Assembly (NCBI GenBank): GCA_913061365.1
Contig: CAJXUT010000003.1
Span: 1-40,660 of the forward strand
Reading direction: 5' to 3'
Length of the DNA: 40,660 nt
Source of the DNA: an uncultured Colwellia sp.
GTDB taxonomy: Bacteria > Pseudomonadota > Gammaproteobacteria > Enterobacterales > Alteromonadaceae
Positions within the stretch are counted from its first letter, which is position 1, and each line of letters starts with the position of its first letter. Made by a program: the position numbers and the translations under genes. A model generated the notes under the pieces. The model ran no database searches. It had not been told where the DNA came from and saw only the letters and a program-made list of their open reading frames with translations. Positions 7,740 through 26,652 of the stretch are shown here, piece after piece.

Positions 7740-7775
7740 TGCACTTTCAGGATAGGAACGTGATTTATTGGAGCG
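7740..7775 (+). promoter_or_regulatory. XylS/BenR-like regulator element, copy A (upstream of reductase unit)
   Basis: TGCACTTTCAGGATA-GGAACG-TGATTTATTGGAGCG; first half is an exact match to TGCA-N6-GGNTA; aligns without gaps to copies B and C. Confidence 0.8.
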
Positions 7776-7863
7776 TTTGGAAGTTGAAATATTTTATAGT
7801 AAGAACAGATTAAAAACTAAGGTGATAACTAGAATTACCCCGTTTTAATAATTAACTGTCAGA

Positions 7864-8955
7864 ATGAATGGAGTAATCAAACTAATGAATAAACAAGATA
7901 CAGTGATTGAGCATAACTCGCCAATCGTAGAAGAAAATTCTCATAAGGTAACACTAAATTTCTCTGATGGTGTTACAAAACAATTTAATGTCCAACCTAA
8001 CAAAAGTATTCTTGATGAAGGACTTGCGGCTGGAATGCCGTTGTTATACCAATGCCGCTCAGGCAGCTGCTCAAGTTGTATTTGTACGTTGGATAAAGGC
8101 GAAATTACCACTATTAATGGTGAAAGCTCGACTCTACTTCGTAGTGAGCATGAGCTCGGTCAGCGTCTACTGTGTGTCTCTCAAGCTGAAGCTGATTGTA
8201 GTATTGACTTGGCATACGGCAGTGAAGTAGGTACTTCAAGTGCACAGGAAGTAAATGCCTTTATTGACTCGATTGAACACATAGGGGTTAATACCGTTCG
8301 CTTAACCTTAGAATTAGCCGAAGGTAGTTACATGGAATTTAGACCTGGGCAATTTATGCAAATTAATGTACCTGGTGTTGGCACTTTACGTAGTTACTCT
8401 CCCTCTAGCACCAACAAAGAATTCCCTAAAATGGAATTCCTTATCCGCCTTATTCCCGGTGGAGTCATGTCTACCTACCTCAAAGAGCGAGCAGAAGTCG
8501 ATCAAATACTAACGCTTACGGGCCCATATGGCGCATTTTTCCTTCGCGAAGAGCACAAACGAGCTCCCCATATATTCGTCGCAGGTGGGACGGGATTAGC
8601 GCCAATTTTATCCATTATCGATACTATTCGCCAATTAAGTGGTGTGAAACCTAAGATGCTACTTAGCTTTGGCTGTGCAACTCCAGAAGCATTATTTTGC
8701 TTAGATGATATTCAGTTGAGAGAACAATGGTTACCAAGCCTTGAAGCAAGAATTTGTGTCGATCAAGGGGCAAAAGAGGGACATTATCTAGGAAACCCGG
8801 TTAGCCCTTTACAAGAAGCAGATGTTACTGATCCCAATACCGTTGCTTATTTATGTGGCCCTCAGCCTATGATTGATGGCGCTACAGCGCGTCTTATAGA
8901 ACTTGGTGTTAAGGCAGAAAATATCTTTGCAGAGCAATTCGTTGCAAGTAACTAG
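7864..8955 (+). CDS. Aromatic ring-hydroxylating dioxygenase reductase component (plant-type 2Fe-2S + FAD/NAD(P) domains, BenC/XylZ-like)
   Basis: CRSGSCSSCICTL...LLCVSQ 2Fe-2S motif; FRPGQFMQINVPG...RSYSPSS flavin motif; GGTGLAPILSI NAD motif. ATG 7885 (MNKQDTV) is an alternative start with GGAG upstream. Confidence 0.92.
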   Translation: MNGVIKLMNKQDTVIEHNSPIVEENSHKVTLNFSDGVTKQFNVQPNKSILDEGLAAGMPLLYQCRSGSCSSCICTLDKGEITTINGESSTLLRSEHELGQRLLCVSQAEADCSIDLAYGSEVGTSSAQEVNAFIDSIEHIGVNTVRLTLELAEGSYMEFRPGQFMQINVPGVGTLRSYSPSSTNKEFPKMEFLIRLIPGGVMSTYLKERAEVDQILTLTGPYGAFFLREEHKRAPHIFVAGGTGLAPILSIIDTIRQLSGVKPKMLLSFGCATPEALFCLDDIQLREQWLPSLEARICVDQGAKEGHYLGNPVSPLQEADVTDPNTVAYLCGPQPMIDGATARLIELGVKAENIFAEQFVASN

Positions 8956-8965
8956 GAAGGTTGAT

Positions 8966-10288
8966 ATGGAACTTACTAAAAAAATACCTTTTACGCCGGA
9001 ACAAACTAAATGGTATCAAGAGGCACGTTCTAAACTAGACCCTGAACGTTTACAAAAACTATTATTTGATTTAACCAATATTCATAGTCCAACAGGGGCA
9101 GTGCGTGAAGCAAGTGAGTTCATGACTGACCACTTTGAAAAAATGGGCATGAAATCACGCTATTACCCGATGAGTGATATCTCTGGCAATGTCATGGCTG
9201 AGCGAAGTGGCTCTGGCGGTGGCGCAACAGTTTTGTTGTATGCCCCGATAGATACTCACCTTGACCGAACTCCCGGTGAAGAAATACTCACCGGCGATGG
9301 GCAAGAAGTTGATTTAAATCCTTGCGCAAAGCAAGTAGATGACTGGGTCTTTGGACTTGGTTCTTCAAACCCAAAAGCGATGGTTGCTACGTTAACAGAG
9401 GTAGCTCATGCGTTAATTGATGCTGATATCCCGTTAACCGGTGATTTGATTTTAGGCATAGCGGATGGTGGTATGCCGGTGGATATCACGTCACGAAATG
9501 CAGGCATGTCTAATGGTGTTTTACATATGCTAAACCGTGGTATGTATCCGGATTTTGCAATCATTATGAAGCCATGGAACTGGGTATTTCATGAAGAGCC
9601 GGGCATGGCATGGTTTAAATTAAAAGTTAAAGGCACTTTGGGTTATGCGGGTGTTCCACATAACCTGCCAAACTTTAGAAGTTCAGTTGTTCCTTCTGCT
9701 ACGGTGATAACAGAGTTACAGAAATGGATTGTTGAATATACTGAACGCAACACGAGTGGTGTTATTCAGCCACATGGTTGGATTTCTGGTGTTCGTGGTG
9801 GTGATGTTGAACGCCCTGGCTTCCCTAGCGCAGTGACTGAAATATTTTTTGATGTGCGAGTGAATCCTCGCGTCAGTCCAGCCGATGTTAAAGCTCAATT
9901 CGCAAGCTTTATTGAAGAACTGAAAAGTCGTTTTCCAGATCTTGACCTTGACTGGGAGCAATATGGCTCGGTACCTGGTGGTACAACAGATCCAGAAAAT
10001 TGGATTATTCAGTCATGTAAGCGTGGTTGGGAGTTCATCGAGGAGCGTCCTCATGGCATGCCTGACTTACTTGCAGGACAGACTGATGGCGCAGCTTTAC
10101 GTCGCTATGGCGTACCAACAGCGCGTATTGGCTGGCCATGGCCAGCAACAGGAGCACCTTTGCCAGTAGCAGAAGGGCTTGGTGGCATGGGAGCAACTTA
10201 TATCCCCGATTTAATGCCCTGTGCGGAAAAAATTCTTTATGCCCTTATTGATACATTAACTCGTCCTCGTAGTGAGCTTGAATTGTAA
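8966..10288 (+). CDS. M20/DapE/ArgE-fold protein with apparently degenerate metal site (function unknown)
   Basis: Overall M20 architecture (SPTGAVREASEFMTDHFEKMG; dimerisation domain; TDGAALRRYG) but canonical metal/catalytic residues appear replaced. Start at ATG 8966 preceded by AGGAAGG; the listed ORF start (8903) overlaps the upstream gene. Confidence 0.85.
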   Translation: MELTKKIPFTPEQTKWYQEARSKLDPERLQKLLFDLTNIHSPTGAVREASEFMTDHFEKMGMKSRYYPMSDISGNVMAERSGSGGGATVLLYAPIDTHLDRTPGEEILTGDGQEVDLNPCAKQVDDWVFGLGSSNPKAMVATLTEVAHALIDADIPLTGDLILGIADGGMPVDITSRNAGMSNGVLHMLNRGMYPDFAIIMKPWNWVFHEEPGMAWFKLKVKGTLGYAGVPHNLPNFRSSVVPSATVITELQKWIVEYTERNTSGVIQPHGWISGVRGGDVERPGFPSAVTEIFFDVRVNPRVSPADVKAQFASFIEELKSRFPDLDLDWEQYGSVPGGTTDPENWIIQSCKRGWEFIEERPHGMPDLLAGQTDGAALRRYGVPTARIGWPWPATGAPLPVAEGLGGMGATYIPDLMPCAEKILYALIDTLTRPRSELEL

Positions 10289-10302
10289 TTATTACCTTTG
10301 TG

Positions 10303-10341
10303 AAAACTCATCCGTAAGCTTTGTATCTTGATGAGTTTTTT
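10303..10341 (+). terminator. Candidate intra-operon terminator/attenuator
   Basis: AAAACTCATC - loop - GATGAGTTTTTT between the M20-like gene and the first amidase. Confidence 0.65.
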
Positions 10342-10372
10342 CTTTGGCCTTAAGTTTTGTTGGAGATCATAA

Positions 10373-11779
10373 ATGAATGATTCAAGTGATATTCATTATT
10401 TAGAAATGCACGAGTTATCGCAATTAATTCGTACCCGAGAGCTATCTCCGGTAGATGTAACGAAAGCACAAATAGCGCGTATCGAGTCGCTAGATAACCA
10501 TTTACAAAGTTATGCTTGTGTGACAACAGATATTGCGTTGCAACAAGCTCAAGAAGCAGAAGATGAGTTAGCAAAAGGGATCAGCCGAAGTCCTTTACAC
10601 GGTATTCCTCTTGCGTTTAAAGATAATATCAATACAGCCAATGCTGTGACAACCAATGGTATGCCTCTTAACGCATTAAACACCCCAACACATGATGCAA
10701 CCGTTGTTACTCGGTTGCGTGAAGCAGGTACCGTGATGCTTGGTAAGTTGCAAATGACAGAGGGGGACTCTGTTATGCATCATCCAGATATTGTGGCACC
10801 TAATAACCCGTGGGGATCGACTCATTGGGCAGGCGCTTCATCAAGTGGTGCAGGCGTGGCTACTGCTGCGGGACTATGTTATGGCGCAATAGGCACTGAA
10901 AACGGTGGCTCTATTCGATTTTCTTGTGCCGCAAATGGGCTAACCGGCTTAAAGCCAACATGGGGTCGAGTCAGTGGTTATGGTGTTAATAGAATGGCAG
11001 CTAGTATGGATCACGTTGGCCCTATTACCCGCAGTGCACAAGATACTTTATTTTTTTTATCAACCATAGCGGGCTATGACGCTTTAGATCCAACATCTTC
11101 ACCTACTGTTTGTCTTGAAGTTCCGAGCATTGAGTCTAACTTTAAGGGCTTGTGTGTAGGAGTCGATCTCGAGTGGGTAAATAATGGTGTTGATCCTGTT
11201 ATTCAAAAAGCAATTAAAGAAATAATCAGTATGATTTTTGCTGGTGGTGGGAAAGTAAAACGAATCACTATGCCTGACGCAACTCAAATCAGCAAAAATT
11301 GGGAAGCGCAATGCGGTGTACAAATGGCTGTTGCCCATGAAAACAGTTACTCGTTGCACGATAAGCAATATGGTCCAGATTTAAGCCGATTAATTGATAG
11401 TGGACGCCAGTTAAGTGCAACTGATTACCAACGTATGCTGGAAGAAGCACAATGCTTTAATGGTGCCATGGATACTGTGTTACATGATGTTGATATGATA
11501 CTTGCACCGGTACAACCCTGTGCGGCTCCCACTCATGCACAACTAACTAACGTCGTTAACGATGCTGATATGAATCAGCGCTTAATTGAATTCACCGCCC
11601 CTTTCAATATCACCGGACACCCATGTCTTAGCTTTCCAATAGGACAAACGGAGTCAGGTATGCCTATCGGTGGTCAGTTTATAGGCCGTAAAGGTGGGGA
11701 TGCTGAACTCTGCCGAGCGGGTATGGCGGTACAACAAGTGACTGACTGGCATAAGTTACGACCCCCTGTTACAGCGTAA
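10373..11779 (+). CDS. Amidase (amidase signature family)
   Basis: Lys in PLAFKDNI, GASSSGAG, and GTENGGSIR nucleophile region; 468 aa. Confidence 0.92.
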   Translation: MNDSSDIHYLEMHELSQLIRTRELSPVDVTKAQIARIESLDNHLQSYACVTTDIALQQAQEAEDELAKGISRSPLHGIPLAFKDNINTANAVTTNGMPLNALNTPTHDATVVTRLREAGTVMLGKLQMTEGDSVMHHPDIVAPNNPWGSTHWAGASSSGAGVATAAGLCYGAIGTENGGSIRFSCAANGLTGLKPTWGRVSGYGVNRMAASMDHVGPITRSAQDTLFFLSTIAGYDALDPTSSPTVCLEVPSIESNFKGLCVGVDLEWVNNGVDPVIQKAIKEIISMIFAGGGKVKRITMPDATQISKNWEAQCGVQMAVAHENSYSLHDKQYGPDLSRLIDSGRQLSATDYQRMLEEAQCFNGAMDTVLHDVDMILAPVQPCAAPTHAQLTNVVNDADMNQRLIEFTAPFNITGHPCLSFPIGQTESGMPIGGQFIGRKGGDAELCRAGMAVQQVTDWHKLRPPVTA

Positions 11780-11919
11780 ATTAAATGATCCACGGGTCTT
11801 ATTTTGGTTTACCTGCTAACTCAGGTGTCAGTTCTATTTAATTTATAAAATTGATTATTCAATTATATAACCGTGATTTTAAGTTTATTGAGAGTCTTTC
11901 TCATAGAAGGAGAATTTAG

Positions 11920-13368
11920 ATGAAAGTGTTTGAATCAACGTATCAATCTACACAGACAGATTTGACTATCGCACAAGCACAAAGTGCTTTTCGTAATGGA
12001 GAGCTAACCAGTGTTGAGCTTGTGAGTGCCTGTTTAGAGCGTGCAGAAGCAGGAAAAGAATTAAATGTATATGTCACCTTGGACGGTGAAGGTGCGCTTG
12101 ATGCTGCTCAGCGTGCAGATGATCGAAGAAAAAATGGTCAAATTATGCCACCACTAAGTGGTATTCCCATTGTTATCAAAGACAATATTCATACTGCCGG
12201 GTTACGATGTACAGCGGGTTCTCCTGCTTTCTCACACTATATACCAAATGAAGATGCATCAACTGTACATAAGTTGCGTGAAGCGGGTGCCATTATCTTA
12301 GGTAAAACTAATATGCACGAACTTGCTTTTGGTGTTACTGGTTATAATCAAGCGTTTAATACAGGCAGCGGTATTGGTGTACGTAACCCTTATGATGGTT
12401 CACGTGTAGCCGGTGGCTCCTCTTCTGGTAGTGCCGCAGCATTAGGTGCTCGTATGGCATTAGGCTCTTTAGGTACAGATACCGGAGGGTCGATGCGAAT
12501 CCCTTCTTCACTCAATGGCTGTGCAGCATTACGTCCAAGTGCTGGCCGATATGCTAATGATGGTGTGATCCCTATTGCTGAAAGTAGAGATACTGTTGGC
12601 CCCATGGCATTGTGTATGTCAGACGTAGCTTTACTTGACAGTATTATGACTGATGAGTTTGACTTGCCATCTATTGCACTTGATGAATTACGCCTTGGTG
12701 TCCCTAGTGAATGTTGGCAAAACCTTGATGAAGATACAAAAGAACTTGCACAAAGTACGTTAAATAAGCTTAAGCAACATGGTATCACGTTTGTTCCTAT
12801 TGATGATGCTGGCTTACAAGCCCTCAATGAGCCGGTTGGCTTTTCTGTGGTAATTCATGAAGCATATGAATGTATGGTTAAGTACCTGCGTGATTATAAT
12901 CATGATATGGATATTAATCAGCTTAAAAGCAAAATAGGTAGTCCTGATGTTTTATCTATCTATGAAGATTGGGTAATACCAAGAAAAATGCCTTCTGAAG
13001 ACGGCTTAATTGATGTTCAACCTCTTTATGAAGTGGCTCAAAGTGGTGGCAGACAAGCGCTACGGGAACGTTACCAAACTCTGTTTACTCAGCACAATAT
13101 TGATGCTTTATTTTTTCCTACAACTGCAATTGTTGCGCCTTTAGCAAATGCAGAAGCCAACTTGCCAAGTAACTTCGAATACTTAATTCAAAATACTGAA
13201 CCAGCTGCTAGCGCAGGACTTCCATGTATTCAGCTACCTGTTGGTTTAGGTCGTATTACTGGTATGCCTGTGGGCATAGAGCTTGATGGGCCTCAAGGAA
13301 GTGATCGAAGGCTACTCGCGATAGGGCAGTTATTAGAATGTATTGTTGGCCGGCTAGCACGTGCGTAA
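11920..13368 (+). CDS. Amidase (amidase signature family; indoleacetamide hydrolase/mandelamide amidase-like)
   Basis: IPIVIKDNIHTAGLRCTAGSPAF, GKTNMHELAFGVTG, GGSSSGSAAALGAR, GTDTGGSMRIPSSLNG; AGAAGGAG RBS upstream. Confidence 0.92.
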   Translation: MKVFESTYQSTQTDLTIAQAQSAFRNGELTSVELVSACLERAEAGKELNVYVTLDGEGALDAAQRADDRRKNGQIMPPLSGIPIVIKDNIHTAGLRCTAGSPAFSHYIPNEDASTVHKLREAGAIILGKTNMHELAFGVTGYNQAFNTGSGIGVRNPYDGSRVAGGSSSGSAAALGARMALGSLGTDTGGSMRIPSSLNGCAALRPSAGRYANDGVIPIAESRDTVGPMALCMSDVALLDSIMTDEFDLPSIALDELRLGVPSECWQNLDEDTKELAQSTLNKLKQHGITFVPIDDAGLQALNEPVGFSVVIHEAYECMVKYLRDYNHDMDINQLKSKIGSPDVLSIYEDWVIPRKMPSEDGLIDVQPLYEVAQSGGRQALRERYQTLFTQHNIDALFFPTTAIVAPLANAEANLPSNFEYLIQNTEPAASAGLPCIQLPVGLGRITGMPVGIELDGPQGSDRRLLAIGQLLECIVGRLARA

Positions 13369-13481
13369 TGAATGATATTTTTTAAACAATAGCACTAACA
13401 GGCAGAGCCATGTATCGATGGTGGTATGTCAGCAGAATAGTTCTTGTCAACATTTGAAAATTAAACAAAGGAAAATAACTA

Positions 13482-14432
13482 ATGATACAAGCTTTAAGTT
13501 ATCTCATTGTGGAAACGCCTCATTTAAAAGATTGGATTAAACAAGTTAGAGATCATATTGGTATGCAAGTTGAGGTTGTTGAGACTGATCAATGTGTACG
13601 TTTGCGTATAGATGAAAAATTTCAACGTATTGTAGTGACTAAAATAACGGGTCAAGCTTCCATGGGAATGGGCTTTGAAGTGATTGATTCCACTGAGTTA
13701 AGCCGAATTGCTAAAGTACTGGAAGCTGAGGGGTATGCTGTTACTCAAGGGACTGAACAAGAACTCGTCTTACGCGGTGTTGAAGGCATGATATTTTTTC
13801 ATGACCCAGATGGACTACGTATTGAAGTGTGTCATGGGTTGGCAGATGCGGACTCTTTGTTTGAGCCTGGTCGCCCAATTGGAGGATTTCGAACAGGAGA
13901 AATGGGACTTGGCCATGTTGCTCTGATTACCGAGCACTATGAAAAATTAAGTCACTTATATCGCGGTATATTTGGTTTTAATTTAAGCGACCATACCGAT
14001 GCACCTTTTCGTGTTGAATTTCTTCACTGTAACCCTCGCCATCACACCATTGGTATCGCTGATACTGGCGGCCCAGCCAAAATTTATCATTTTATGCTCG
14101 AATACAATGACTTTGATGATGTGGGCAGAGCCTATGATATGGCATTACCCGATCCAGACAGTATTGGTGTGTCGTTAGGTCGTCATATTAATGATCATGT
14201 CATTTCTTTTTATCTAAAAAACCCTGATGGTTGGATGTTTGAGCTGGGTTGGGCGAGCCGAACAGTTGGGCCTGATTGGGAGGTTGAAGAACTTGAGGGC
14301 TTGAGCCTTTGGGGGCATGACCGTACATGGCTACCAGATGATAAGCGCGAAGAAGCGCGACAAATATTAAACCGATTAGCGAAAAAAGGTGTCCGTGCGC
14401 CTGTTATAGCGCCTAATCAAACTACTAATTAA
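13482..14432 (+). CDS. Type I (VOC) extradiol ring-cleavage dioxygenase, 2,3-dihydroxybiphenyl 1,2-dioxygenase (BphC)-like
   Basis: Two VOC domains; ligand-like residues in GLGHVALI, NDHVISFYLKNPDGWMFELGW (His, His, Glu). Confidence 0.9.
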   Translation: MIQALSYLIVETPHLKDWIKQVRDHIGMQVEVVETDQCVRLRIDEKFQRIVVTKITGQASMGMGFEVIDSTELSRIAKVLEAEGYAVTQGTEQELVLRGVEGMIFFHDPDGLRIEVCHGLADADSLFEPGRPIGGFRTGEMGLGHVALITEHYEKLSHLYRGIFGFNLSDHTDAPFRVEFLHCNPRHHTIGIADTGGPAKIYHFMLEYNDFDDVGRAYDMALPDPDSIGVSLGRHINDHVISFYLKNPDGWMFELGWASRTVGPDWEVEELEGLSLWGHDRTWLPDDKREEARQILNRLAKKGVRAPVIAPNQTTN

Positions 14433-14453
14433 ATTATTAAGGTTAAATAGACT

Positions 14454-15284
14454 ATGTCTTTATCTACTACACAATTAGAAATTGCAAACAGTATGCAAGT
14501 TGGTGATTTCACCCTCAACTATCATGACCAAGGTGAAGGGGAAGTGATTTTATTAATTCACGGCTCAGGACCAGGAGTTACTAGTTGGGCAAACTGGCGT
14601 GGTATTATTCCAGAGTTATCTAAGCCAGCACGTGTTATTGCGCCAGACATGCTGGGTTTTGGTTATACCCAATGTCCTGAAAATACAAAATTAGACTCCG
14701 CCACTTGGGTAAACTCATTAGTGGGTTTGTTAGATAACTTAGATATTGAAAAAGTGTCTGTGGTAGGCAACTCTTTTGGTGGTGCAATTGCGTTAGCATT
14801 TGCTCACAAGCACCCAGAACGAGTCAATAAACTTGTGCTGATGGGCTCTGTTGGCTTGTCATTCCCTATTACCGACGGTTTGAATAAAGTTTGGGGCTAT
14901 CAACCTTCTTTACTAGCCATGCGTGAGTTGATGGAAGTTTTTGCTTATGATCACAGTATTATTAATGATGATCTTGTTCAAATGCGTTATGAAGCAAGCG
15001 TTCGAGATGATGTTCAAACCCGTTTTGCACAACTCTTCCCCGAGCCTCGTCAAAATGGTGTAGAGATGCTAGCGATGACTGAAAATCAGTTACGGTCATT
15101 ACCTCATAAAACATTGATTATTCATGGGCGAGACGATCAGGTTATACCGCTTGAAGTCTCTGAGCGCATGATTAAATTGATTCCTCATTCTCAATTACAT
15201 GTTTATGGCGAATGTGGCCACTGGGTGCAAATTGAAAAAGCCCAAGAATTTACTCAGTTACTTTTAAATTTCTTAGTCGAATAG
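14454..15284 (+). CDS. Alpha/beta hydrolase, meta-cleavage product hydrolase (DmpD/XylF/BphD-like)
   Basis: LIHGSGPGVTSWANWR, nucleophile GNSFGGA, acid GRDDQVIP, CGHWVQIEKA. Confidence 0.92.
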   Translation: MSLSTTQLEIANSMQVGDFTLNYHDQGEGEVILLIHGSGPGVTSWANWRGIIPELSKPARVIAPDMLGFGYTQCPENTKLDSATWVNSLVGLLDNLDIEKVSVVGNSFGGAIALAFAHKHPERVNKLVLMGSVGLSFPITDGLNKVWGYQPSLLAMRELMEVFAYDHSIINDDLVQMRYEASVRDDVQTRFAQLFPEPRQNGVEMLAMTENQLRSLPHKTLIIHGRDDQVIPLEVSERMIKLIPHSQLHVYGECGHWVQIEKAQEFTQLLLNFLVE

Positions 15285-15307
15285 CTCATTATAATAGGAT
15301 AAAAAAG

Positions 15308-15730
15308 ATGAATCGTGAAAGTATTAAAGGCCGTTGGTCTGTTGTTTCGTGGGAGCAAGTCTATGATGATGGACGTATTGTTTCACCCATGGGGACCGAA
15401 GTAGAAGGCTTTATTGAGTATAGCGACAACGGCATGTTTTGTGTTGTTTCTAAAAAAAATAGAGAAGCATTTACGACCGGTGGTCAGTGGAATGCGACAG
15501 ATGCAGAAAAAGCTGCTGCATATAGTAGTTACCTAACCTATGCAGGTGGGTACGATGTTGAAGGAAATACGATTACTCACTTTGTGGATCATAGTATTTT
15601 CCCTAATTGGGTAGGAGGTACTCAATATCGCCACGCTGAGTTAGAGGGAGATAGCCTTACCCTAACAACCGCGCCCTTAGAAGCTGGCACAAGTGAAGCG
15701 CGTGTTTCTAAATTAAGTTTTAAGCGTTAA
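15308..15730 (+). CDS. Lipocalin-like domain protein
   Basis: IKGRWSVVSWEQVYDDGRIVSPMGTEVEGFIEYSDNGMF... and HFVDHSIFPNWVGGTQYRHAELEGDSLTLTTAP, typical of the lipocalin-like (PF13924-type) family. Confidence 0.75.
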   Translation: MNRESIKGRWSVVSWEQVYDDGRIVSPMGTEVEGFIEYSDNGMFCVVSKKNREAFTTGGQWNATDAEKAAAYSSYLTYAGGYDVEGNTITHFVDHSIFPNWVGGTQYRHAELEGDSLTLTTAPLEAGTSEARVSKLSFKR

Positions 15731-15735
15731 ATATT

Positions 15736-15760
15736 AAAACCCTCGATATGAGGGTTTTTT
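15736..15760 (+). terminator. Rho-independent terminator
   Basis: AAAACCCTC gatat GAGGGTTTTTTT immediately after the lipocalin-like CDS. Confidence 0.88.
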
Positions 15761-16010
15761 TGATCTATGTTCCACTTCCTCATTATCTTGAATTTTATAC
15801 ACTAAATTACTGATATCAGTACTCTGTCAAATAGTATAACTATTATTTCTGATTTGTTGATTTGATAAGTTCTCTTCTAATAAAAAATAAATTTAAATAA
15901 AAATCATGTGGTTACCTTTTTGATAAAAAATTGTTAGATGATAAATCCCTAAACAAACCTTAAAAAAATGATGTTCTTACCTTTCGGATAAACACTTAAA
16001 TATATGTTAA

Positions 16011-16046
16011 TGCGATTATCGGATAACTTTGTCATTTTTGGGAGGG
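16011..16046 (+). promoter_or_regulatory. XylS/BenR-like regulator element, copy C (upstream of Rieske oxygenase)
   Basis: TGCGATTATCGGATA-ACTTTG-TCATTTTTGGGAGGG; TGCg-N6-GGATA, second half aligned to copies A and B with the same spacing. Confidence 0.7.
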
Positions 16047-16127
16047 ATGCGCTTATGTAGATCCAATAATCTTGTTAATACCCAACTGCAACGAGCAGTT
16101 ATATTAAGCAAATAAGGATAATAAAAA

Positions 16128-17465
16128 ATGTCTGAACAACCAATAATCCGACGCCGTGTTGTAAAAAAAGGTATTAGTGACGAAAGAACTAATGATAGTA
16201 GAACGCAAAGTCAATATGACCCTTATAAAGATGCAGCATGGGGATTTATAAACCATTGGTACCCTGCATTATTTACGAATGAACTTGAAGAAGATCAAGT
16301 TGAAGGTATTCAAATTTGTGGCGTTCCTATCGTTTTACGTCGTGCTAATGGCAAAGTTTATGCGCTTAAAGATCAGTGTTTACATCGCGGTGTTCGTTTA
16401 TCTGAAAAGCCAATGTGTTTTAACAAAGAATCAATCACTTGTTGGTACCATGGTTTTACTTTTGACCTAGAAGATGGTGACTTAACAACGATTGTTGGTA
16501 ATCCAGAAGATAAGTTAATTGGTACAACAGGAATTACTACTTACCCAGTAAAAGAAATAAATGGCATGATTTTCGTGTTTGTTCGCGAAGATGATTTCTC
16601 GTTGGACGATGTGCCACCACTATCTGACGATTTACCATTCCGTTTCCCTGAAAACAGTGAAAAATTCCCACACCCTTTATGGCCACAATCACCAAGCGTG
16701 CTTGATGATAATGCCATGATTTTAGGGATGCATCGTACGGGTTACGGTGACTGGCGTATTGCTTGTGAAAACGGCTTTGATAACGCACACATCCTTGTAC
16801 ATAAAGATAATACCATTGTTCATGCGATGGAATGGGTTCTACCGCTAGGTATCGTACCAGCAGCTGATGATGCAATTACTGTTGTTGAAGATGAGAAAGG
16901 ACCAAAAGGTTTGATGCAATGGTTATTCACTGATAAGTGGAAGCCAACCCTTGAAAATGAAGAGTTAGGTGTAAAAGTTGATGGCATGAACAGTCGTCAC
17001 TATCGAACCTCAGTTGTATTACCCGGTGTATTAATGGTTGAAAACTGGCCTGAAAATCATGTAGTTCAGTATGAGTGGTATGTTCCTATCACTGATGACA
17101 CGCATGAATACTGGGAAGTACTTGTTAAAATCTGTAATACAGATGAAGAAAAAAGACTACATCAGCAACGTTATGACTTGGTATATAAACCATTATGTTT
17201 ACATGGTTTTAATGACTGTGATTTATATGCACGTGAAGCGATGCAAAACTTTTACTCTGATGGTACTGGCTGGGATGACGAACAGTTAGTTGCTACAGAT
17301 GTCTCTCCTATTACATGGCGTAAGCTAGCTTCAAGATGGAACCGTGGTATCGCGAAACCTGGTCGTGGTGTTGCCGGTGCATTAAAAGATACAAGCCTAA
17401 TCTTTAAAAATACTGCAGATGGACACCGTCCTGGTTACAAAGTTAGAAAAGTAGAAGAAGAGTAA
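16128..17465 (+). CDS. Rieske non-heme iron aromatic ring-hydroxylating oxygenase, carbazole 1,9a-dioxygenase terminal oxygenase (CarAa)-like
   Basis: Rieske CLH-X17-CWYH; mononuclear iron motif ENGFDNAHILVHKD; GFNDCDLYAREAM; closely resembles CarAa segments (ENGFDPSHIYIHKDS, NDDIWAREAM). Confidence 0.92.
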   Translation: MSEQPIIRRRVVKKGISDERTNDSRTQSQYDPYKDAAWGFINHWYPALFTNELEEDQVEGIQICGVPIVLRRANGKVYALKDQCLHRGVRLSEKPMCFNKESITCWYHGFTFDLEDGDLTTIVGNPEDKLIGTTGITTYPVKEINGMIFVFVREDDFSLDDVPPLSDDLPFRFPENSEKFPHPLWPQSPSVLDDNAMILGMHRTGYGDWRIACENGFDNAHILVHKDNTIVHAMEWVLPLGIVPAADDAITVVEDEKGPKGLMQWLFTDKWKPTLENEELGVKVDGMNSRHYRTSVVLPGVLMVENWPENHVVQYEWYVPITDDTHEYWEVLVKICNTDEEKRLHQQRYDLVYKPLCLHGFNDCDLYAREAMQNFYSDGTGWDDEQLVATDVSPITWRKLASRWNRGIAKPGRGVAGALKDTSLIFKNTADGHRPGYKVRKVEEE

Positions 17466-17469
17466 AACA

Positions 17470-17503
17470 AAAACCAGTATCAAATTGCTGATACTGGTTT
17501 TTT
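17470..17503 (+). terminator. Rho-independent terminator after the Rieske oxygenase
   Basis: AAACCAGTATCA - loop - TGATACTGGTTTTTT. Confidence 0.9.
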
Positions 17504-17805
17504 AATATGACCAAATTTTTATATTAATCGATAATTAATGATAAATAACAGCAACTTACAAAATGTTAAATAATATTTAAGCAAAAGGGCACTTTGAACG
17601 AAGTGCGTTTTAGAGGTTATTTTGTCAATTGTAATGCTGCGTTTTTACAAGAAATAGAGGGAGGGTTTAATCAGTGATGAACTCTCTATACCTACATTAG
17701 AACCTCATTATATGTTGGGTCTTTAGATTGTATATAACCGATATTTTAAAATCGAGAAACTTAATGTTGAAGGTTATAGAACGACCTAGTTAAAAGAAAA
17801 AAAGG

Positions 17806-18879
17806 GTGGAAGTAGTGAGAATATTAAATCTATTTACAAGGTTACTCATCGGGGCGCTCCCGTGGTTAGTTATTGCGTGTCTTTTATATGTAGGGCTTTT
17901 TGTTAAGCCTGAACCTATTGGCAGTACAGTGATACCAACCGCTATCGAGTCGCGTGATCGTTTTTATAGTCTAGTGGCAATGGATACGGTTTTATGGGCA
18001 GTGGGTGCTGATGGCAAGATTGTTCGTAGCGAAGATGCGGGAGCAAGCTGGCAAGTACAACCAGTACCCGTTACGGCTCATTTTCAGGATATAGCTGCTT
18101 GGGATAATAACACGGCAGTAGTCGTTGGTAATGAAGGCGTTGCTCTTCATACGAGTGATGGTGGTGAAACTTGGCTACAGTCGACAGCGCCGGTAAATGA
18201 CGTTGTTAATAAGTTGTTAGATGTTAAAGCTTATGCCAACGGTGAAGCGTGGGCTGTCGGTGCGTTCGGTACCATATTGTTCAGCCGTGATTACGGTAAA
18301 AATTGGTCTTATGCCAGAGAAACTGAAGATTTCATTATCAATGAAATTGCTAAGCGAGATGACGGTGGTCTGGTCGCCGTGGGTGAATTTGGTTCGATCT
18401 TAATTTCACAAACTAAGGGAGTTGACTGGGAAAGTGTCACAGCACCTGTTGAATCAAGTCTGATGGCGATCGATTTCAAAAATGAAAGCACTGGTATTGC
18501 TGCAGGACTGGAAGGCGTTTTATTAAAAACAGTTGACGGTGGCTTTAATTGGACGCGTGTTGGAAATTCATTGGTTTTTGACAAAGTAGAAGTAAAACCT
18601 GGCGTTGCATTTGCGGGAGATTGGCGTGATGTCACCACTGAGCATATCTTTGCTGTCGTTTGGCATGAAGAGTTAAATCGTTGGTTTGGTGTCGGGACTA
18701 AAGGGTTGTGGTTAGAAGCTGATCCTAGTGCTGTTGCTTGGCAATCGGGCCGGCTTGCGCCAAAAGATCTCGCTTGGCACACCTCCATTGCCAAAATTAA
18801 AGACGGTGTTGTGTTAGGTGGAAAAAATTTAGGGCGTTTGTCTAAGGACCATCAGTGGCTAGTTTTTCAAGAACTGTAA
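17806..18879 (+). CDS. YCF48/BNR-repeat-like protein
   Basis: Repeated VGADGKIVRSEDAGASWQ / VGNEGVALHTSDGGETWLQ / VGAFGTILFSRDYGKNW motifs; N-terminal hydrophobic segment. Confidence 0.85.
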   Translation: MEVVRILNLFTRLLIGALPWLVIACLLYVGLFVKPEPIGSTVIPTAIESRDRFYSLVAMDTVLWAVGADGKIVRSEDAGASWQVQPVPVTAHFQDIAAWDNNTAVVVGNEGVALHTSDGGETWLQSTAPVNDVVNKLLDVKAYANGEAWAVGAFGTILFSRDYGKNWSYARETEDFIINEIAKRDDGGLVAVGEFGSILISQTKGVDWESVTAPVESSLMAIDFKNESTGIAAGLEGVLLKTVDGGFNWTRVGNSLVFDKVEVKPGVAFAGDWRDVTTEHIFAVVWHEELNRWFGVGTKGLWLEADPSAVAWQSGRLAPKDLAWHTSIAKIKDGVVLGGKNLGRLSKDHQWLVFQEL

Positions 18880-18924
18880 TATCCATTTGCTATTCAGAAT
18901 AAAAAACAAATCAGGGGATTTGCA

Positions 18925-21405
18925 ATGAGTAAAAATGTAGCTAGTTGGCTAATTCGTTTCCGAGTGTGGGTTGTCGGTGTAATTTTGTTAATTACATTGG
19001 CACTAAGTTATTCCGCAATAAAAATCGAAGTAAAAACTGTATTTCAAGATCTACTACCTAGTGATCATGAATATGTAAAAACACATAATAAATTTAAAGA
19101 CACTTTTGGTGGCTCAAATTTGATCACTATTATGGTGGAATCAGAGCAAGGGGATATCTTTCAGCCTCATGTGTTAGGTGCTGTTGATGAAATAACAAAA
19201 GGTTTACAACAAGTGTCAGCAGTTAACCCTTTTCAAATAATCTCTTTAGCGTCGAAAAAGCTAAAAGAAGTGAAAGCGTCTACTTCAGGCATTGAAACCA
19301 AACCACTAATGTGGCCTGAACTACCTGAAACTAAAGCTGAACTGGACGAGCTTCGCGAAAAGGTATTACGAAACTCTTTAGTTTATGGTCCCTATGTATC
19401 AGGTGATTTAACCTCAACCTTAATTACTGTTGATTTCATCGATCGTTTACTCGATTACGAAACAGCATTTAATGAAATATCAACCCTAGTCAATACCATT
19501 GATATATCGGGTGTGAAAGTTAGAGTCGTAGGCGATCCAATGCTGTATGGCTGGGTTAACTTTTACTTACCTGAAACACTTAACTTGGTATTGATGGCAG
19601 GATTGATCTTATTTTTAATGCTTTTTGGCATAAATCGTACATGGCGTGGCACTATCCTACCGCTGATCTCTGGTTTTGTTAGTGCTATTTGGGCATTAGG
19701 TATTGCAAATTTAATAGGGATTAACTTCGATCCCCTCGTTATTGTTATTGCGATGCTGATCACAGCTCGTGCTGTTTCACACTCAGTCCAAATTATAACT
19801 CGTTTTGACGAAGAAATAGACAAAATAGAAGAAGGCAATGAATCTGTTGGTTTTGCGGCCAATTTAACGTTATCTCAGTTACTTCGTCCGGGTATGTTAG
19901 GTATTGCTACAGATGCATGTTGTGTCGCTGTTGTTGCGTTAAGCCCAATTCCATTACTACAAAAGCTTGCATTGCTTGCTGTGGTCTGGGTATCTACGGT
20001 TGCTATTAGCTCAATTATATTGACGCCTGTTTTATTGTCTTGGGTAAAACACCCTCGTGGCTATGCACACCCGGTTAATGTTAGTTGGTTAATTCACCGC
20101 CTACTTGATCTTTGTCATTACTTAACGATTTCTAAAATGCGTTATCTGATGGTGGTGTGGACAGTAATAGTTTTCTTCGTTTGTGGTTATTTTGCCCTTG
20201 GATTGAAAGTGGGTGATGCCAATCCTGGTTCTCCGATTTTATGGCCTGACTCTCAATATAACCAAGACTCAGCTGCGATTAATAATAAATTTCAGGGTGC
20301 TGACCGCATGTTTGTTGTCGTTGGTGGAGAAACTAACGATCTCGCGAAAACACCTGAAGTATTACAAAGTATGCAAAAGTTTCAGCGCTTCATGGAAGTA
20401 CAACCTGAAGTAGGTGGAACATTATCAATGAGTGATGTTTTACCATCAGTTAACCGCACCTTAAGGGAAGGTAATCCACGCTATGAAGAGTTAGGCTCTT
20501 CACAAGATATCAACGGTGAGCTGCTTTATATGTTTGAGGCTGGCGCAGAACCTGGTGATATGGATCGCTTTGTTGATACTGATCGTGGTCATGCTTCCGT
20601 TACCTTATTCTTCCGTGATCGCCAAGGTGAAACTATTCGTACCGCTGTAGCGCGTATCAATGAGTTTATTGATGAGAATCCATTGAGTAATGGTGAATAT
20701 CAGCTAGCCGGTGGTTTAATTGGTGTTATTGCGGCGGTAAATGAAGTTATTTTATCGGGGCAATTACAGTCAATTGCATATGCATTACTGATCCTTGTGG
20801 TGCTATGTACGGTTGTTTATCGCTCATCGATGGCGGGCATGTTCTTCATGGTTCCAGTTGTTTTATCTAATACCGTCACCTTCAGTTTTATGTCTTATAT
20901 GGGTATAGGTATGAACATTAATACGGTACCTGTTGCGGCTTTAGGTATTGGGTTAGGCGTGGATTATGCCTTGTATATTGTCGATCGAATTAAACAAGAA
21001 TTACAAAATGGTTTAGACGATAAAACTGCAATTGAGAAAGCACTACATAGTGCTGGTAAAGGTGTTGTTATTACGGCTTTTGTTTTAATTGTGTCTGTTC
21101 TATTGGTGTATATGAGTTCACTTAAATTTCAAGCTGAAATGGGGCTTTTAGTTGCGTTATGGCTAACGGTTTCTGCTTTTACTGCTTTATTTGTAATGCC
21201 TGCTTTGGTTTATATATTCAAGCCGGCCTTTATCTATGGTGATGCCAAATTGAGCGCACCGGTACCAAATAATAGGGAAGCTATTACTAGTGTACCTGTT
21301 TCAAATAATGGGAACGTTAATACAAGCGTGCCTGTTTCAACAAGTTGGGATACTAATTCGGGTATGCCAGTTTCAAGAAGAACTGCTGAGGTGATAAATG
21401 ACTAA
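18925..21405 (+). CDS. RND/MMPL-family transporter permease
   Basis: 826 aa, two blocks of TM helices with GIGLGVDYALYIVDRIKQE and DLLPSDHEYVKTHNKFKDTFGG. Confidence 0.9.
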   Translation: MSKNVASWLIRFRVWVVGVILLITLALSYSAIKIEVKTVFQDLLPSDHEYVKTHNKFKDTFGGSNLITIMVESEQGDIFQPHVLGAVDEITKGLQQVSAVNPFQIISLASKKLKEVKASTSGIETKPLMWPELPETKAELDELREKVLRNSLVYGPYVSGDLTSTLITVDFIDRLLDYETAFNEISTLVNTIDISGVKVRVVGDPMLYGWVNFYLPETLNLVLMAGLILFLMLFGINRTWRGTILPLISGFVSAIWALGIANLIGINFDPLVIVIAMLITARAVSHSVQIITRFDEEIDKIEEGNESVGFAANLTLSQLLRPGMLGIATDACCVAVVALSPIPLLQKLALLAVVWVSTVAISSIILTPVLLSWVKHPRGYAHPVNVSWLIHRLLDLCHYLTISKMRYLMVVWTVIVFFVCGYFALGLKVGDANPGSPILWPDSQYNQDSAAINNKFQGADRMFVVVGGETNDLAKTPEVLQSMQKFQRFMEVQPEVGGTLSMSDVLPSVNRTLREGNPRYEELGSSQDINGELLYMFEAGAEPGDMDRFVDTDRGHASVTLFFRDRQGETIRTAVARINEFIDENPLSNGEYQLAGGLIGVIAAVNEVILSGQLQSIAYALLILVVLCTVVYRSSMAGMFFMVPVVLSNTVTFSFMSYMGIGMNINTVPVAALGIGLGVDYALYIVDRIKQELQNGLDDKTAIEKALHSAGKGVVITAFVLIVSVLLVYMSSLKFQAEMGLLVALWLTVSAFTALFVMPALVYIFKPAFIYGDAKLSAPVPNNREAITSVPVSNNGNVNTSVPVSTSWDTNSGMPVSRRTAEVIND
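21256..21384 (+). repeat. 36-bp (12-codon) imperfect tandem repeat encoding the C-terminal tail of the RND permease
   Basis: APVPNNREAITS / VPVSNNGNVNTS / VPVSTSWDTNSG / MPVSRRT. Confidence 0.85.
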
Positions 21406-22963
21406 TAAAAAAAATTACATTGCATTATCAATCGCGTTTGCTATCAGTGCGGAGACATTGTCTTCGCAAGTGAATGCTGTTGATTTAGGGCCGATACAAA
21501 TTGACGGGTTTATTCGTCAACATATGTCGATGAACCTAGATGATCCTATCGGACCTGGGGGCGCTATTGATGCAAAAGGTGATTTATCAATGAACCGTAC
21601 GACTTTACAGTTAGAGTGGAGTGCGGATCTCCCTATGGATATTTTGTTTAAAGGGGTAGCACGTAAAAGCTGGGAACAAAATACTAGTTATTTGAGAGGT
21701 TTAAATGAGGCTGGAGCTTTTGGCTCTGAAAGCCCACGTGACTATTATGGTGATTTTGAATTTCGTGAGTTTTATTTTGAAATCCCTGTTGGTGATCGTG
21801 TGTTGCTTACCTTAGGTAAACAACAAGTTGCTTGGGGTGAGTCTGATTTTTTCCAAGCAATGGATCTCGTTCATGGCTTCGATTATAGTTGGCGCTCATT
21901 CTTAGAGCCTGCTAATGAAGACTTACGTAAGCCAGTGATCATGGCAAATGCGCAGATTGATTTTCCAAAAGTTGATGGTCAATTGCAACTATTGTACCGA
22001 CCAGGCTGGGATAATGATGATCAGATTGGTAATACTTATGATGTTGAAGGTGGACGCTGGTCAAATGCGCCTTGGAAAACGGTAAACTTCCCTGCCGGTG
22101 ACCCCTATGCCTATGGTCACTCTGAAGGTGATGCGGATGATCCAACTTATGGTGTTCGTTGGAATGGCCAATGGGGTGATTACGGTTATTCTCTCGCTTA
22201 TCTTCATACCTTTAATCCTGATCCTCTGATGAATGCTAACCCAGCGTTTGGCGGTGAGGCATATAAAGGTGTCTACACTAATGATTCAACTTCGTTCAGT
22301 ACTATCGGTGAAATAATATTCCCAATGATCGATGTATTGGGCTTTACCTTGAACGGTTATTCTGAATCGAATGATTTTGTTTGGAGTACTGAGTTTGCTT
22401 ACATTAAAGACTCTCCGTTTAATGTTAGTGCTGTGGAAGGTAACCCTACACCGGGTTGTAGTCCTTTTGTCACAGGTGGTTTACCACACGGATTTTGTGG
22501 TATCCAAGAAAGTGATGTCTTACGTACCATGTTCCGTATCGATAAAAACTTAGCATTTACGCAAGATCTACTAGGCACTGAAAAACCGGCATTCTTCTCT
22601 GTACAGCTTTTCAATACTTGGTTGCTTGATCACGAAGATGGTATGAAAATCTTAGTGGGACAACCTGAAGACCGCAAAGAGCATTCAACTTTAGTGACCT
22701 TCATTTTAAGCACTAGTTACATGAACGGACGTTTAATTCCTGAATTAGTTACTGGTTTTGATGTTACCTACGGTGGCGGCTTTGCCGTTCCAAGTATCAC
22801 TTATGCACCGGGTAACCATTGGCGCGTTAAGCTAGAAGCGGATTTATTCTGGGCTGATGGCAATATGGAACATGGTGGCGATGTTACTGCAACTGATTCT
22901 GCCTTATTTGGCTGGTTCGAAGGTAATGATCAGTTAGCACTGACTGTAACTTATCAATTTTAA
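21398..22963 (+). CDS. DUF1302 family outer-membrane-type protein
   Basis: Signal-peptide-like N-terminus, beta-rich sequence ending in LTVTYQF, GKQQVAWGESDFFQAMDLVHG motif; ATG overlaps the stop of the upstream gene. Confidence 0.88.
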   Translation: MTNKKNYIALSIAFAISAETLSSQVNAVDLGPIQIDGFIRQHMSMNLDDPIGPGGAIDAKGDLSMNRTTLQLEWSADLPMDILFKGVARKSWEQNTSYLRGLNEAGAFGSESPRDYYGDFEFREFYFEIPVGDRVLLTLGKQQVAWGESDFFQAMDLVHGFDYSWRSFLEPANEDLRKPVIMANAQIDFPKVDGQLQLLYRPGWDNDDQIGNTYDVEGGRWSNAPWKTVNFPAGDPYAYGHSEGDADDPTYGVRWNGQWGDYGYSLAYLHTFNPDPLMNANPAFGGEAYKGVYTNDSTSFSTIGEIIFPMIDVLGFTLNGYSESNDFVWSTEFAYIKDSPFNVSAVEGNPTPGCSPFVTGGLPHGFCGIQESDVLRTMFRIDKNLAFTQDLLGTEKPAFFSVQLFNTWLLDHEDGMKILVGQPEDRKEHSTLVTFILSTSYMNGRLIPELVTGFDVTYGGGFAVPSITYAPGNHWRVKLEADLFWADGNMEHGGDVTATDSALFGWFEGNDQLALTVTYQF

Positions 22964-22987
22964 TAAAAATAAATTTGGAGAAACACT

Positions 22988-24253
22988 ATGATGATGAAAA
23001 AAACGTTAATCACGAGCTTAGTGACCTCAGCACTTATGCTGACAACTAATGTAGCTTTGGCTGAAGTTAAAGAAGGTGCGGTATTATCGGCAGAAAATAT
23101 TGATGCTTTGTATGAAGACACTTTCGAAGGTCATAAAATTAAAGATTTATTGACCGAGAAAATAGAATGGCGTATTCGCGAAAATGGCTTTCAAATGCCG
23201 TTAGTGCATTCGAAAGTAGTAGAAATGGATGCTAAATGGGTTGAACGCTCTAATGCCAATACTGCAACGGCAACATTAAACGCAGAAACTCGTCAGGTTG
23301 AAGGTTGGCAAGGTGGTATGCCATTCCCAAATATCGATGAGAGTGATCCTAAAGCGGCTGAGAAAATTGTTTGGAATTGGTATTACGGGAACCCGCGTGG
23401 TGATGTAATGAACGTGCCAAACGTCTCTTACGTCATGATTGATGGCGACTCAGGTATTGAGCGTGCACAAAACTGGAGCTTCATTCGTTACACCATGAAA
23501 GGGCGTATGAATGGTGAACAGACTGAAGGTGATGGTAAAGAGCTAAGCCGTACATTATTCTTTGCAACTGCCCCAAGAGATATTAAAGGGTTAGGTACTT
23601 ATACTGTTCGTCAAGACAGTGACAAAGTAGAAGATGTTTGGGCTTATATTCGTGCAGTACGTCGTACTCGTCGTTTATCCGGTGGTGCTTGGATGGATCC
23701 AATTGGTGGCACAGATCAACTACAAGATGATATCGAAATATTCAATGCTAATCCATCTTGGTACGAAAGTTATAAGTTGATTGGTAAGCGTCATATGCTT
23801 GTAGCTGCGCATGGTAAGCATAGTGCATGGCAAGTAGGTGCGAAAACTCAAGACGAAGAATATCCGACTCTTGATTTGAAGAACCCACCTTACTGGAACT
23901 TCAATTACGATAACTATGAACCACGTGAAGTTTATGTCATTGAAGCGATAACGCCTGAAGAGCATCCATATAGTAAGAAAATTATTTATATCGATACTCA
24001 ATATCCTCGTGTTCACTTTGGTGAAGCGTACGATAAAAAAGGTGAATTCTGGAAAATGTTCCAATTCCATTCTTACCCAGGTAAAGGTGAAGATGGCTTC
24101 CGTGATGTTCGTACTACCGGTGGTGTTACCATCGACTTCAAACGAAATCACGCAACTGTATTCTTCCCAGATACGTCTACTTGGAGCACTAACACGCCAG
24201 GTTTAGAAATGGACGATGTTAACTTATCTGCTTTGCGTAAAGGCGCGCGTTAA
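22988..24253 (+). CDS. DUF1329 family periplasmic protein
   Basis: Signal peptide (MMMKKTLITSLVTSALMLTTNVALA), GGMPFPNIDESDPKAAEKIVWNW, RRTRRLSGGAWMDPIGGTDQLQDDIEIFNANP. Confidence 0.9.
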   Translation: MMMKKTLITSLVTSALMLTTNVALAEVKEGAVLSAENIDALYEDTFEGHKIKDLLTEKIEWRIRENGFQMPLVHSKVVEMDAKWVERSNANTATATLNAETRQVEGWQGGMPFPNIDESDPKAAEKIVWNWYYGNPRGDVMNVPNVSYVMIDGDSGIERAQNWSFIRYTMKGRMNGEQTEGDGKELSRTLFFATAPRDIKGLGTYTVRQDSDKVEDVWAYIRAVRRTRRLSGGAWMDPIGGTDQLQDDIEIFNANPSWYESYKLIGKRHMLVAAHGKHSAWQVGAKTQDEEYPTLDLKNPPYWNFNYDNYEPREVYVIEAITPEEHPYSKKIIYIDTQYPRVHFGEAYDKKGEFWKMFQFHSYPGKGEDGFRDVRTTGGVTIDFKRNHATVFFPDTSTWSTNTPGLEMDDVNLSALRKGAR

Positions 24254-24274
24254 TCACGCACAATAATATAGTGT

Positions 24275-24299
24275 AAAGCGAGCCAAGGATGGTCGCTTT
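24275..24299 (+). terminator. Hairpin downstream of DUF1329 gene, candidate terminator
   Basis: AAAGCGA-gcc-aagga-tgg-TCGCTTT. Confidence 0.5.
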
Positions 24300-24572
24300 A
24301 TCAATATTATTTCAAAATACAGGTTTCGCATTTTCTAAAAAGTGCTTTGTTGGCATTTTAAAGGGGGTGAAACCTTCAACAGTAAACTTACCTTATTTAG
24401 TTCATTTTAAATGACTTTTATCATTTAACGTATTGCCGATATTTACTGTTTTATAAGTACGAACAGTGATAAATACCCTAAAAATGAAAGATAAATTGTA
24501 CAACGTTAATTATCAGATAAATCAGTAAAACTTATCCGGTAGTGACCTTGGTTTTAATCTAGATATCAAAGG

Positions 24573-24608
24573 TGCACTTTCAGGATATAAAGGTAATTTA
24601 ATGGAGGG
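24573..24608 (+). promoter_or_regulatory. XylS/BenR-like regulator element, copy B (upstream of meta-cleavage lower pathway)
   Basis: TGCACTTTCAGGATA-TAAAGG-TAATTTAATGGAGGG; first 15 bp identical to copy A, 30/36 identical overall. Confidence 0.8.
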
Positions 24609-24913
24609 CTTCTAAGCGAAATGCTTCCTATCATCTTTAGCATAATATTGAGCTCATGAGCCAACGTGCTAGCTAGTATTGCTGGCATATTTTCATACTA
24701 ACTACGTGTGTTAACGTCGTTTGTAGTCATGACTCTATTAGAAGCAATGAACGGTTTTATAAAACGTCAAAACATATTTTCAGCGTTAAGCGTGATAAGG
24801 GAGTTGATTCATTAGTGTAAAAAACTTCTAGCAGTAGAGCACCCCGCATGGCTTTTTGAAAGGAAGTCAACTTTTAGCATAAACCGAATAAATTAGCAGA
24901 GACTGAGAACTAT

Positions 24914-25699
24914 ATGAATAAAGAACAAATACAGTTATGTGGAGATGAACTCTACAATGCATTGACAAAACGACATACAGTCAAACCGTTAACGGAACGC
25001 TTTAATGATATTAGCATGGAAGATGCTTATCACATTTCATTACGAATGGTTGAACGTAGAGTGCAAGCGGGCGCAAAAATTATTGGTAAAAAAATCGGTG
25101 TAACCTCTAAAGCCGTACAGAACATGTTAAATGTTCACCAGCCAGATTTTGGTTACCTCACCCATGATATGGTCTACAGTCAAGGCGAAGAAATGCCTAT
25201 TAGCCAGAAGTTAATGCAGCCAAAAGCAGAAGGGGAAATTGCTTTTATTCTCAAAAAAGATCTTATTGGCCCAGGGATTACTAATGCTGATGTATTGGCG
25301 GCAACCGATTGTGTTATCCCGTGTTTTGAAGTGGTTGATTCACGTATTGAAAATTGGAATATTAAAATTCAAGACACTATTGCTGACAATGCCTCATGTG
25401 GGCTATTTGTTTTAGGTGATAAAGCTGTGTCGCCAAGTAAGATCGATCTTTCAACCTGCGGTATGGTCGTTGAAAAAAATGGCCATATTATCAGTACAGG
25501 CTCAGGAGCTGCGGCACTTGGAAGCCCTGTTAATTGTGTCACTTGGCTAGCGAATACGCTGGGGCAATTTGGAATTCCACTTAAAGCGGGTGAAGTTATT
25601 TTGTCAGGGTCTCTAGTGCCACTTGAACCCGTAAAAGCAGGTGACTTTATGAGTGTTAGCATTGGTGGAATGGGCAACGCCTCAGTCCGTTTTGTTTAA
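24914..25699 (+). CDS. 2-hydroxypenta-2,4-dienoate hydratase / 4-oxalocrotonate decarboxylase family (MhpD/DmpE-like)
   Basis: KIIGKKIGVTSKAVQNMLNVHQPDFGYL, QPKAEGEIAFILKKDL, PCFEVVDSRI. Confidence 0.9.
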   Translation: MNKEQIQLCGDELYNALTKRHTVKPLTERFNDISMEDAYHISLRMVERRVQAGAKIIGKKIGVTSKAVQNMLNVHQPDFGYLTHDMVYSQGEEMPISQKLMQPKAEGEIAFILKKDLIGPGITNADVLAATDCVIPCFEVVDSRIENWNIKIQDTIADNASCGLFVLGDKAVSPSKIDLSTCGMVVEKNGHIISTGSGAAALGSPVNCVTWLANTLGQFGIPLKAGEVILSGSLVPLEPVKAGDFMSVSIGGMGNASVRFV

Positions 25700-25725
25700 T
25701 CGTACATCAGTGAAAGGAAAATAAA

Positions 25726-26637
25726 ATGAGTAAAAAACTTAAAGCAGTAATTATTGGCCCAGGTAACATTGGCACTGACCTGTTGATGAAGATGTTCCGT
25801 TCTGATTGGATTGAACCTGCTTGGATGGTTGGTATTGATCCAGAATCAGACGGATTAAAACGAGCTAGAGAAATGGGCATAAAAACGACTGCTGAAGGGG
25901 TTGATGGTCTTTTACCTCACATCATTGAAGATGATGTTCGTATTGCATTTGACGCTACTTCTGCTTATGTACACGCTGAAAATAGCCGTAAATTGAATGA
26001 ATTGGGTGTGATCATGATTGATTTAACACCAGCAGCTATTGGTCCTTTTTGTGTTCCTCCAGTGAACTTAGTTCAACATGCGAAAGATCTAAAAATGAAC
26101 GTTAACATGGTGACATGTGGCGGTCAGGCAACTATCCCTATGGTGGCGGCTGTATCGAGTATTCAAGATGTTGAATACGGCGAAATTATTGCAACAATAT
26201 CTTCTAAATCAGCGGGTCCCGGTACACGTAAAAATATAGATGAGTTTACTCGTACTACTTCTTCAGCCATTGAAAAGGTTGGCGGCGCTGATAAAGGTAA
26301 AGCCATTATTATTATCAATCCGGCTGAGCCACCACTAATGATGCGAGATACGGTTCACTGTTTGACCAAAGGCACACCAGATGAAGCGGCTATCACAGAA
26401 GCTGTTCACCAGATGGTGAAAGAAGTACAAAAATACGTACCGGGTTATAAGCTAGTGAACGGACCAGTATTCGATGGTAATCGTGTTTCTATCTTTTTAG
26501 AAGTAGAAGGCCTAGGAGATTACCTACCGAAGTACTCTGGTAATTTGGATATTATGACCGCTGCAGGGTTACGTACTGCTGAGATGTTTGCTGAAGAAGC
26601 AAATAAAGGCGCGATTACATTACCCGTTCGTGGTTAA
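25726..26637 (+). CDS. Acetaldehyde dehydrogenase (acylating), MhpF/DmpF-like
   Basis: [55 protein letters not shown]. Confidence 0.95.
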
Positions 26638-26652
26638 GATAAGGACTGAATA

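Follow-up and report, generated by a model that had tools for sequence, protein, structure and literature searches.

We describe three copies of a 36-bp intergenic element, here called A, B and C, in a 40,660-nt stretch (hereafter the window) of a contig from an uncultured Colwellia sp., whose own genome assembly (G000) comprises 3.79 Mb in 373 contigs and is about 90% complete. We consider it highly likely that each copy serves as the operator in an inducible promoter of class II, controlled by an OxoS-like activator. That the three elements are shared is confirmed: the 36-mers reported in the initial annotation were recovered with exactly the same letters and positions, and they lie, as it had stated, before genes for a reductase (A), an oxygenase (C) and a lower pathway (B). 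The elements, the predicted -10 hexamers that follow them and the proposed regulator are listed here.

7740-7775, forward strand: site A, putative bipartite operator (half-sites 7740-7754 and 7760-7774), from sequence and weight matrix; kept in the sister species G019, where its upstream flank is not.
16011-16046, forward strand: site C, putative bipartite operator (half-sites 16011-16025 and 16031-16045), from sequence and weight matrix; kept in G019.
24573-24608, forward strand: site B, putative bipartite operator (half-sites 24573-24587 and 24593-24607), from sequence and weight matrix.
7795-7800, forward strand: predicted -10 of promoter A, TATAGT, from the fixed offset across 71 sites; kept in G019.
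16067-16072, forward strand: predicted -10 of promoter C, TAATCT, from the fixed offset (21).
24629-24634, forward strand: predicted -10 of promoter B, TATCAT, from the fixed offset (21).
6393-7397, forward strand: AraC/XylS-family activator, OxoS-like, the proposed cognate regulator (Pfam AraC_binding_2 and HTH_18; co-occurs with the element).

Sites A and B are identical at 30 of 36 positions, a figure that we could reproduce, and A/C and B/C each agree at 22 of 36. The distal half had been equated with the motif TGCA-N6-GGNTA, which is exact for A and B; site C carries TGCG, a form also found at 24 of 64 sites from other genomes. The repeat period required correction, being 20 bp from GG to GG (element positions 11-12 and 31-32) and not the 21 bp first given. 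In this register the proximal half-site occupies element positions 21-35 and reads GTGATTTATTGGAGC, GTAATTTAATGGAGG and GTCATTTTTGGGAGG in the three copies. The same spacing is found in 72 of 78 sites, with 4 at 21 bp and 2 at 19 bp; no match had any other GG-GG spacing among the values tried, and the reversed control gave 0. The proximal half was originally regarded as a different sequence and as degenerate, and neither description holds. It is rather conserved, with almost every orthologous site reading GGAG[C/T]G (B and C read GGAGGG, versus GGAGCG). The canonical GGATA occupies this half at eight sites of homologous clusters, of which six precede an export-type operon; two of the eight (L046 at 6978 and L051 at 7807) have a proximal TGCA as well. 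Because some sites in related clusters thus carry GGATA in both halves, we regard the proximal GGAG as a specialised second half-site and not as a separate element.

The -10-like hexamers noted earlier are real and stand at a fixed distance from the element. The hexamer begins at offset 21 in approximately 46 of the 71 sites (20 at A, 21 at B and C), and 24 nt separate it from the proximal GG. A -35 position spaced 17 bp from it falls on the last bases of the element (7772-7777 in A), which bears out the proposal that the proximal half overlaps a poor -35; at none of the three sites does this position resemble TTGACA. Scanning for consensus sigma-70 promoters gave no match at the sites, which agrees with activator-dependent promoters but is uninformative, because the matches overall were below shuffle expectation. 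Judged from the sequence, this layout is that of a class-II activator-dependent promoter.

The link between element and regulator was examined in 80 oxygenase loci, collected by a scan of genome contigs. In about half of these loci the simple pattern lies just 5' of the oxygenase, with further matches often found before the reductase and other operons, and an element is located 100-170 bp upstream of the oxygenase in essentially every locus with an orthologue of the 6393-7397 protein (40-66% identity). By a score cut-off, 39 loci have both regulator and element, 2 the regulator only, 3 the element only and 36 neither. The two regulator-only loci (L046 and L047) hold the element in its 19-bp-period form, and the element-only loci are two short contigs (L009 and L038) and one metagenome-assembled genome (L062). 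When 18 oxygenase-bearing genomes were searched whole, 24 matches were obtained, in 9 of 11 regulator-positive genomes and mostly clustered on the oxo contig; all seven regulator-negative genomes lacked the element, and the reversed control gave 0. In the oxygenase tree the loci with both form one clade of 46 rows, within which a single joint loss of regulator and element is nested (Azoarcus sp. L1K30, L035). The gene at 6393-7397 is the sole copy in its own genome at E<=1e-10, and the 36-bp elements, retained over dozens of bacterial species alongside the regulator gene, are very probably docking sites for its product. The original claim that this regulator activates all three units is supported by co-occurrence over the loci for A and C, and is less sure for B. 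The oxygenase clusters with neither OxoS nor the element (L035, L041, L043, L045, L048, L052-L061 and L063-L083) have a different gene order.

Across 14 representative clusters from both proteobacterial classes, identity is 0.99 in the core columns, a value partly fixed by the search pattern, and the values that are not so fixed are 0.78 in the -10 columns and 0.27-0.28, equivalent to random, in the flanks. In the sister species, conservation at sites A and C starts at the element and continues to the gene.

In the genome-wide scan proposed in the initial annotation, the consensus given there has only these three matches in 3.79 Mb, but this test is circular. A looser pattern allowing up to two mismatches yielded three extra matches in the same genome, all with two mismatches, and the reversed control yielded 1. 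A non-circular test used a weight matrix trained on 64 distinct sites, all from other genomes and none from the window. Within the window its three highest scores are those of A (27.0 bits), B (14.1 bits) and C (13.3 bits), the runner-up standing at -2.1, and the top score in 100 order-2 Markov copies of the window was 11.2 bits. No match to the pattern was found in 368 other gammaproteobacterial genomes, sampled evenly across the class.

These findings suggest a mechanism in which two OxoS-like monomers would bind the two tandem 15-bp half-sites, 20 bp apart, with TGCR-N6-GGATA upstream and, nearer the promoter, a variant that ends in GGAG[C/G]. This second half-site would cover the place of the missing -35, and the activator would recruit RNA polymerase to a -10 hexamer starting 21 bp (20 bp in A) past the element. 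Activation may be triggered by an aromatic effector, which is probably a substrate or metabolite of the 2-oxoquinoline type, such that promoters A, C and probably B would switch on together the reductase/ring-cleavage operon, the oxygenase and the lower meta pathway. It might even be that the proximal GGAG[C/T]G is more than a mere variant half-site. The XylS residue R296 is His in the window OxoS and in most orthologues, and we entertain, as a tentative idea with perhaps one chance in a few of being right, a specialised composite element, with an AraC-family subunit standing in for the -35 contact, that co-evolved within the OxoS lineage with changes in the second recognition helix (XylS R296 to His, E299 to Thr).

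The closest known counterpart is the OxoS/oxo-qor regulon of Pseudomonas putida 86, several promoters of which reportedly share TGCPuCPy...GGATA. The Colwellia cluster holds orthologues of oxoO (by PDB entry 1z01) and of oxoR and oxoS (by synteny, that is, conserved neighbourhood), so that an orthologous oxygenase, an OxoR-type reductase and an XylS-type regulator are common to both. Should the strain 86 promoters indeed share that element, the Colwellia cluster would be a copy of their regulon in a new host. The two clusters differ in that Colwellia is an AT-rich host whose lower pathway has its own element, and in that no Qor-type molybdenum hydroxylase was detected in its approximately 90%-complete genome, nor was a qorMSL operon for quinoline 2-oxidoreductase under the element encountered. 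The strain 86 regulon is reportedly described by Carl et al. (2004; Gene 331:177), an entry in the reference list of PMC11656995.

Two other operators offer further comparisons. The Pben promoter of P. fluorescens has two TGCR-N6-GGATA half-sites with a 5-bp gap directly upstream of the -35 region, and thus the same 20-bp period as the Colwellia elements, but it serves a different regulator (BenR) and pathway, and both of its halves are canonical whereas the Colwellia proximal half ends in GGAG (PMC1360089). The Pm promoter of TOL plasmid pWW0, controlled by XylS, was confirmed in the plasmid sequence to have a 21-bp period and a proximal TGCA-N6-GGCTA, and so differs from the Colwellia elements in period (21 versus 20 bp) and proximal half (GGCTA versus GGAG). 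Pm and the Colwellia promoters nevertheless share tandem half-sites and, with the hexamer taken as the Pm -10, the 24 nt from proximal GG to -10. Given a matching distal half, a second half at 20-21 bp, a -35 overlap with a fixed -10 and a gene for an AraC/XylS-family activator, the assignment of the Colwellia elements to the XylS/BenR-type operator-promoters is well supported.

Several observations weigh against control of all three sites by the OxoS-like activator, or for chance resemblance. One genome-length Markov sequence held a match of 14.4 bits, which equals B or C in strength, and therefore these two sites alone would not be significant genome-wide; their position and -10 spacing add to their case. 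The oxygenase tree records few independent evolutionary events, which means that the Fisher value overstates the association, and L062 has the element with no regulator within the fetched 10 kb. Site B faces two further difficulties: the stretch around it (24304-24871) is absent in G019, the only sister species that has the cluster and one in which just a short gap separates the hydratase gene from the preceding DUF1329 gene of the export operon, and promoter B would give a leader of approximately 270 nt.

Given that missing stretch, B is the least certain site, and it is conceivable, if unlikely at perhaps one chance in five, that A and C are true OxoS-type operators whereas B is a decayed or recently copied version that no longer controls, or does not yet control, the lower pathway. 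The absence in the sister species, the long leader, the unusual likeness of A and B, and GGAGGG in place of GGAGCG would all be in keeping with such a history. However, C shares GGAGGG, the distal half of B is complete and its -10 starts at the canonical offset of 21, and the homologous lower-pathway (hydratase/acetaldehyde dehydrogenase) operon in Stutzerimonas also bears an element. A translated search of 24254-24913 for an origin of B's surroundings in another catabolic gene returned nothing.

A second AraC-family gene (4992-5981, minus strand) lies upstream of oxoS, and its AraC-type helix-turn-helix, its position adjoining the cluster and its presence in G019 would make it an alternative binder of the elements. 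We find this very improbable and have dropped it as a candidate, because none of the 80 other loci, of which about half have the element, contains a separate orthologue of it, and because it matches the AndR family far more weakly than the 6393-7397 protein does. Chance resemblance of three intergenic sequences is the least credible explanation of all, since, even with only three sites, a motif read by eye and the strong Markov match, the independent matrix ranked the sites on top, the footprint is conserved and the 368 genomes are empty of it; for A and C, cross-species sequence comparison already refutes it.

The preferred reading, operators of an OxoS-like activator, is set within a cluster whose genes were identified by Pfam, NCBIfam and PDB sequence searches. 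Its sequence content, which the initial annotation had not recognised, is that of the 'oxo' type, that is, breakdown of 2-oxoquinoline or quinoline-like compounds. Its oxygenase matches the P. putida 86 2-oxo-1,2-dihydroquinoline 8-monooxygenase with 907 bits, versus about 297 bits for carbazole dioxygenase.

7864-8955, forward strand: oxygenase reductase (ferredoxin/FAD/NAD), OxoR-like, the first gene 3' of site A (profile matches; the orthologue has an element upstream in many loci).
8903-15730, forward strand: remainder of operon A, with an M20-type hydrolase, two amidases, a BphC-type extradiol dioxygenase, an HsaD/BphD-type hydrolase and a lipocalin-like protein (profiles; same genes in related oxo clusters).
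15736-15758, forward strand: predicted intrinsic terminator closing operon A (terminator search).
16128-17465, forward strand: Rieske oxygenase, OxoO orthologue (full-length match to PDB 1z01).
17469-17502, forward strand: predicted terminator 3' of oxoO, a strong stem-loop with a 15-bp stem (terminator search).
24914-28472, forward strand: lower meta pathway, with 2-oxopent-4-enoate hydratase, acetaldehyde dehydrogenase, 4-hydroxy-2-oxovalerate aldolase and 2-oxo-3-hexenedioate decarboxylase (NCBIfam equivalogs above cut-off).

The first terminator sets operon A apart from oxoO, and the second implies that promoter C probably serves oxoO alone; A would drive the reductase operon and B the lower pathway. 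Since no Qor-type molybdenum hydroxylase (MoCoBD_2 family) was detected in the own genome, growth may depend on a lactam resembling 2-oxoquinoline, or on some other compound, and not on quinoline. The window also encodes a PaaN-type aldehyde dehydrogenase (3028-4689, minus strand; NCBIfam TIGR02288 above cut-off) and a small open reading frame (28633-28938) with a weak, below-cut-off match to a ParD-type antitoxin.

An export-type set of BNR/Ycf48-like, MMPL, DUF1302 and DUF1329 genes occupies 17806-24253, and the same set has been described under aromatic-degradation regulators as possible solvent-stress proteins (PMC6449761). The window has no element before these genes, a point absent from the initial annotation, although Pseudomonas-type clusters have one there, and a search of 17466-17805 for a variant form revealed nothing convincing in the window or the sister species. 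Elements in other genomes precede reductase operons, this export-type operon and an operon that carries a second AraC gene and sometimes a StyA-like monooxygenase; in some genomes they also precede an MhpB-type 3-carboxyethylcatechol dioxygenase operon and the hydratase/acetaldehyde dehydrogenase operon. These latter two operons are consistent with quinoline breakdown by the 8-hydroxycoumarin route (PMC5519977). At L012:13686-17827 and L022:6907-11190 an element stands before a unit that includes a flavin reductase and a second AraC gene, and in the former also the StyA-like monooxygenase; such units could possibly provide an entry oxygenase for another N-heterocycle. In Acinetobacter sp. ANC 4169, a second, identical oxoR-type element (L112, G065:C6:117646) is located near the end of another contig.

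The Colwellia cluster would thus extend the oxo regulon to a new host lineage, adding a new member to a type of gene switch that is already known. More broadly, a strictly spaced putative operator for an XylS-type regulator is present in some 45 beta- and gammaproteobacterial loci, and its natural half-site variants (GGAGC versus GGATA; periods of 19, 20 and 21 bp), found beside changes in the recognition helix, make the DNA specificity of AraC-family proteins directly testable.

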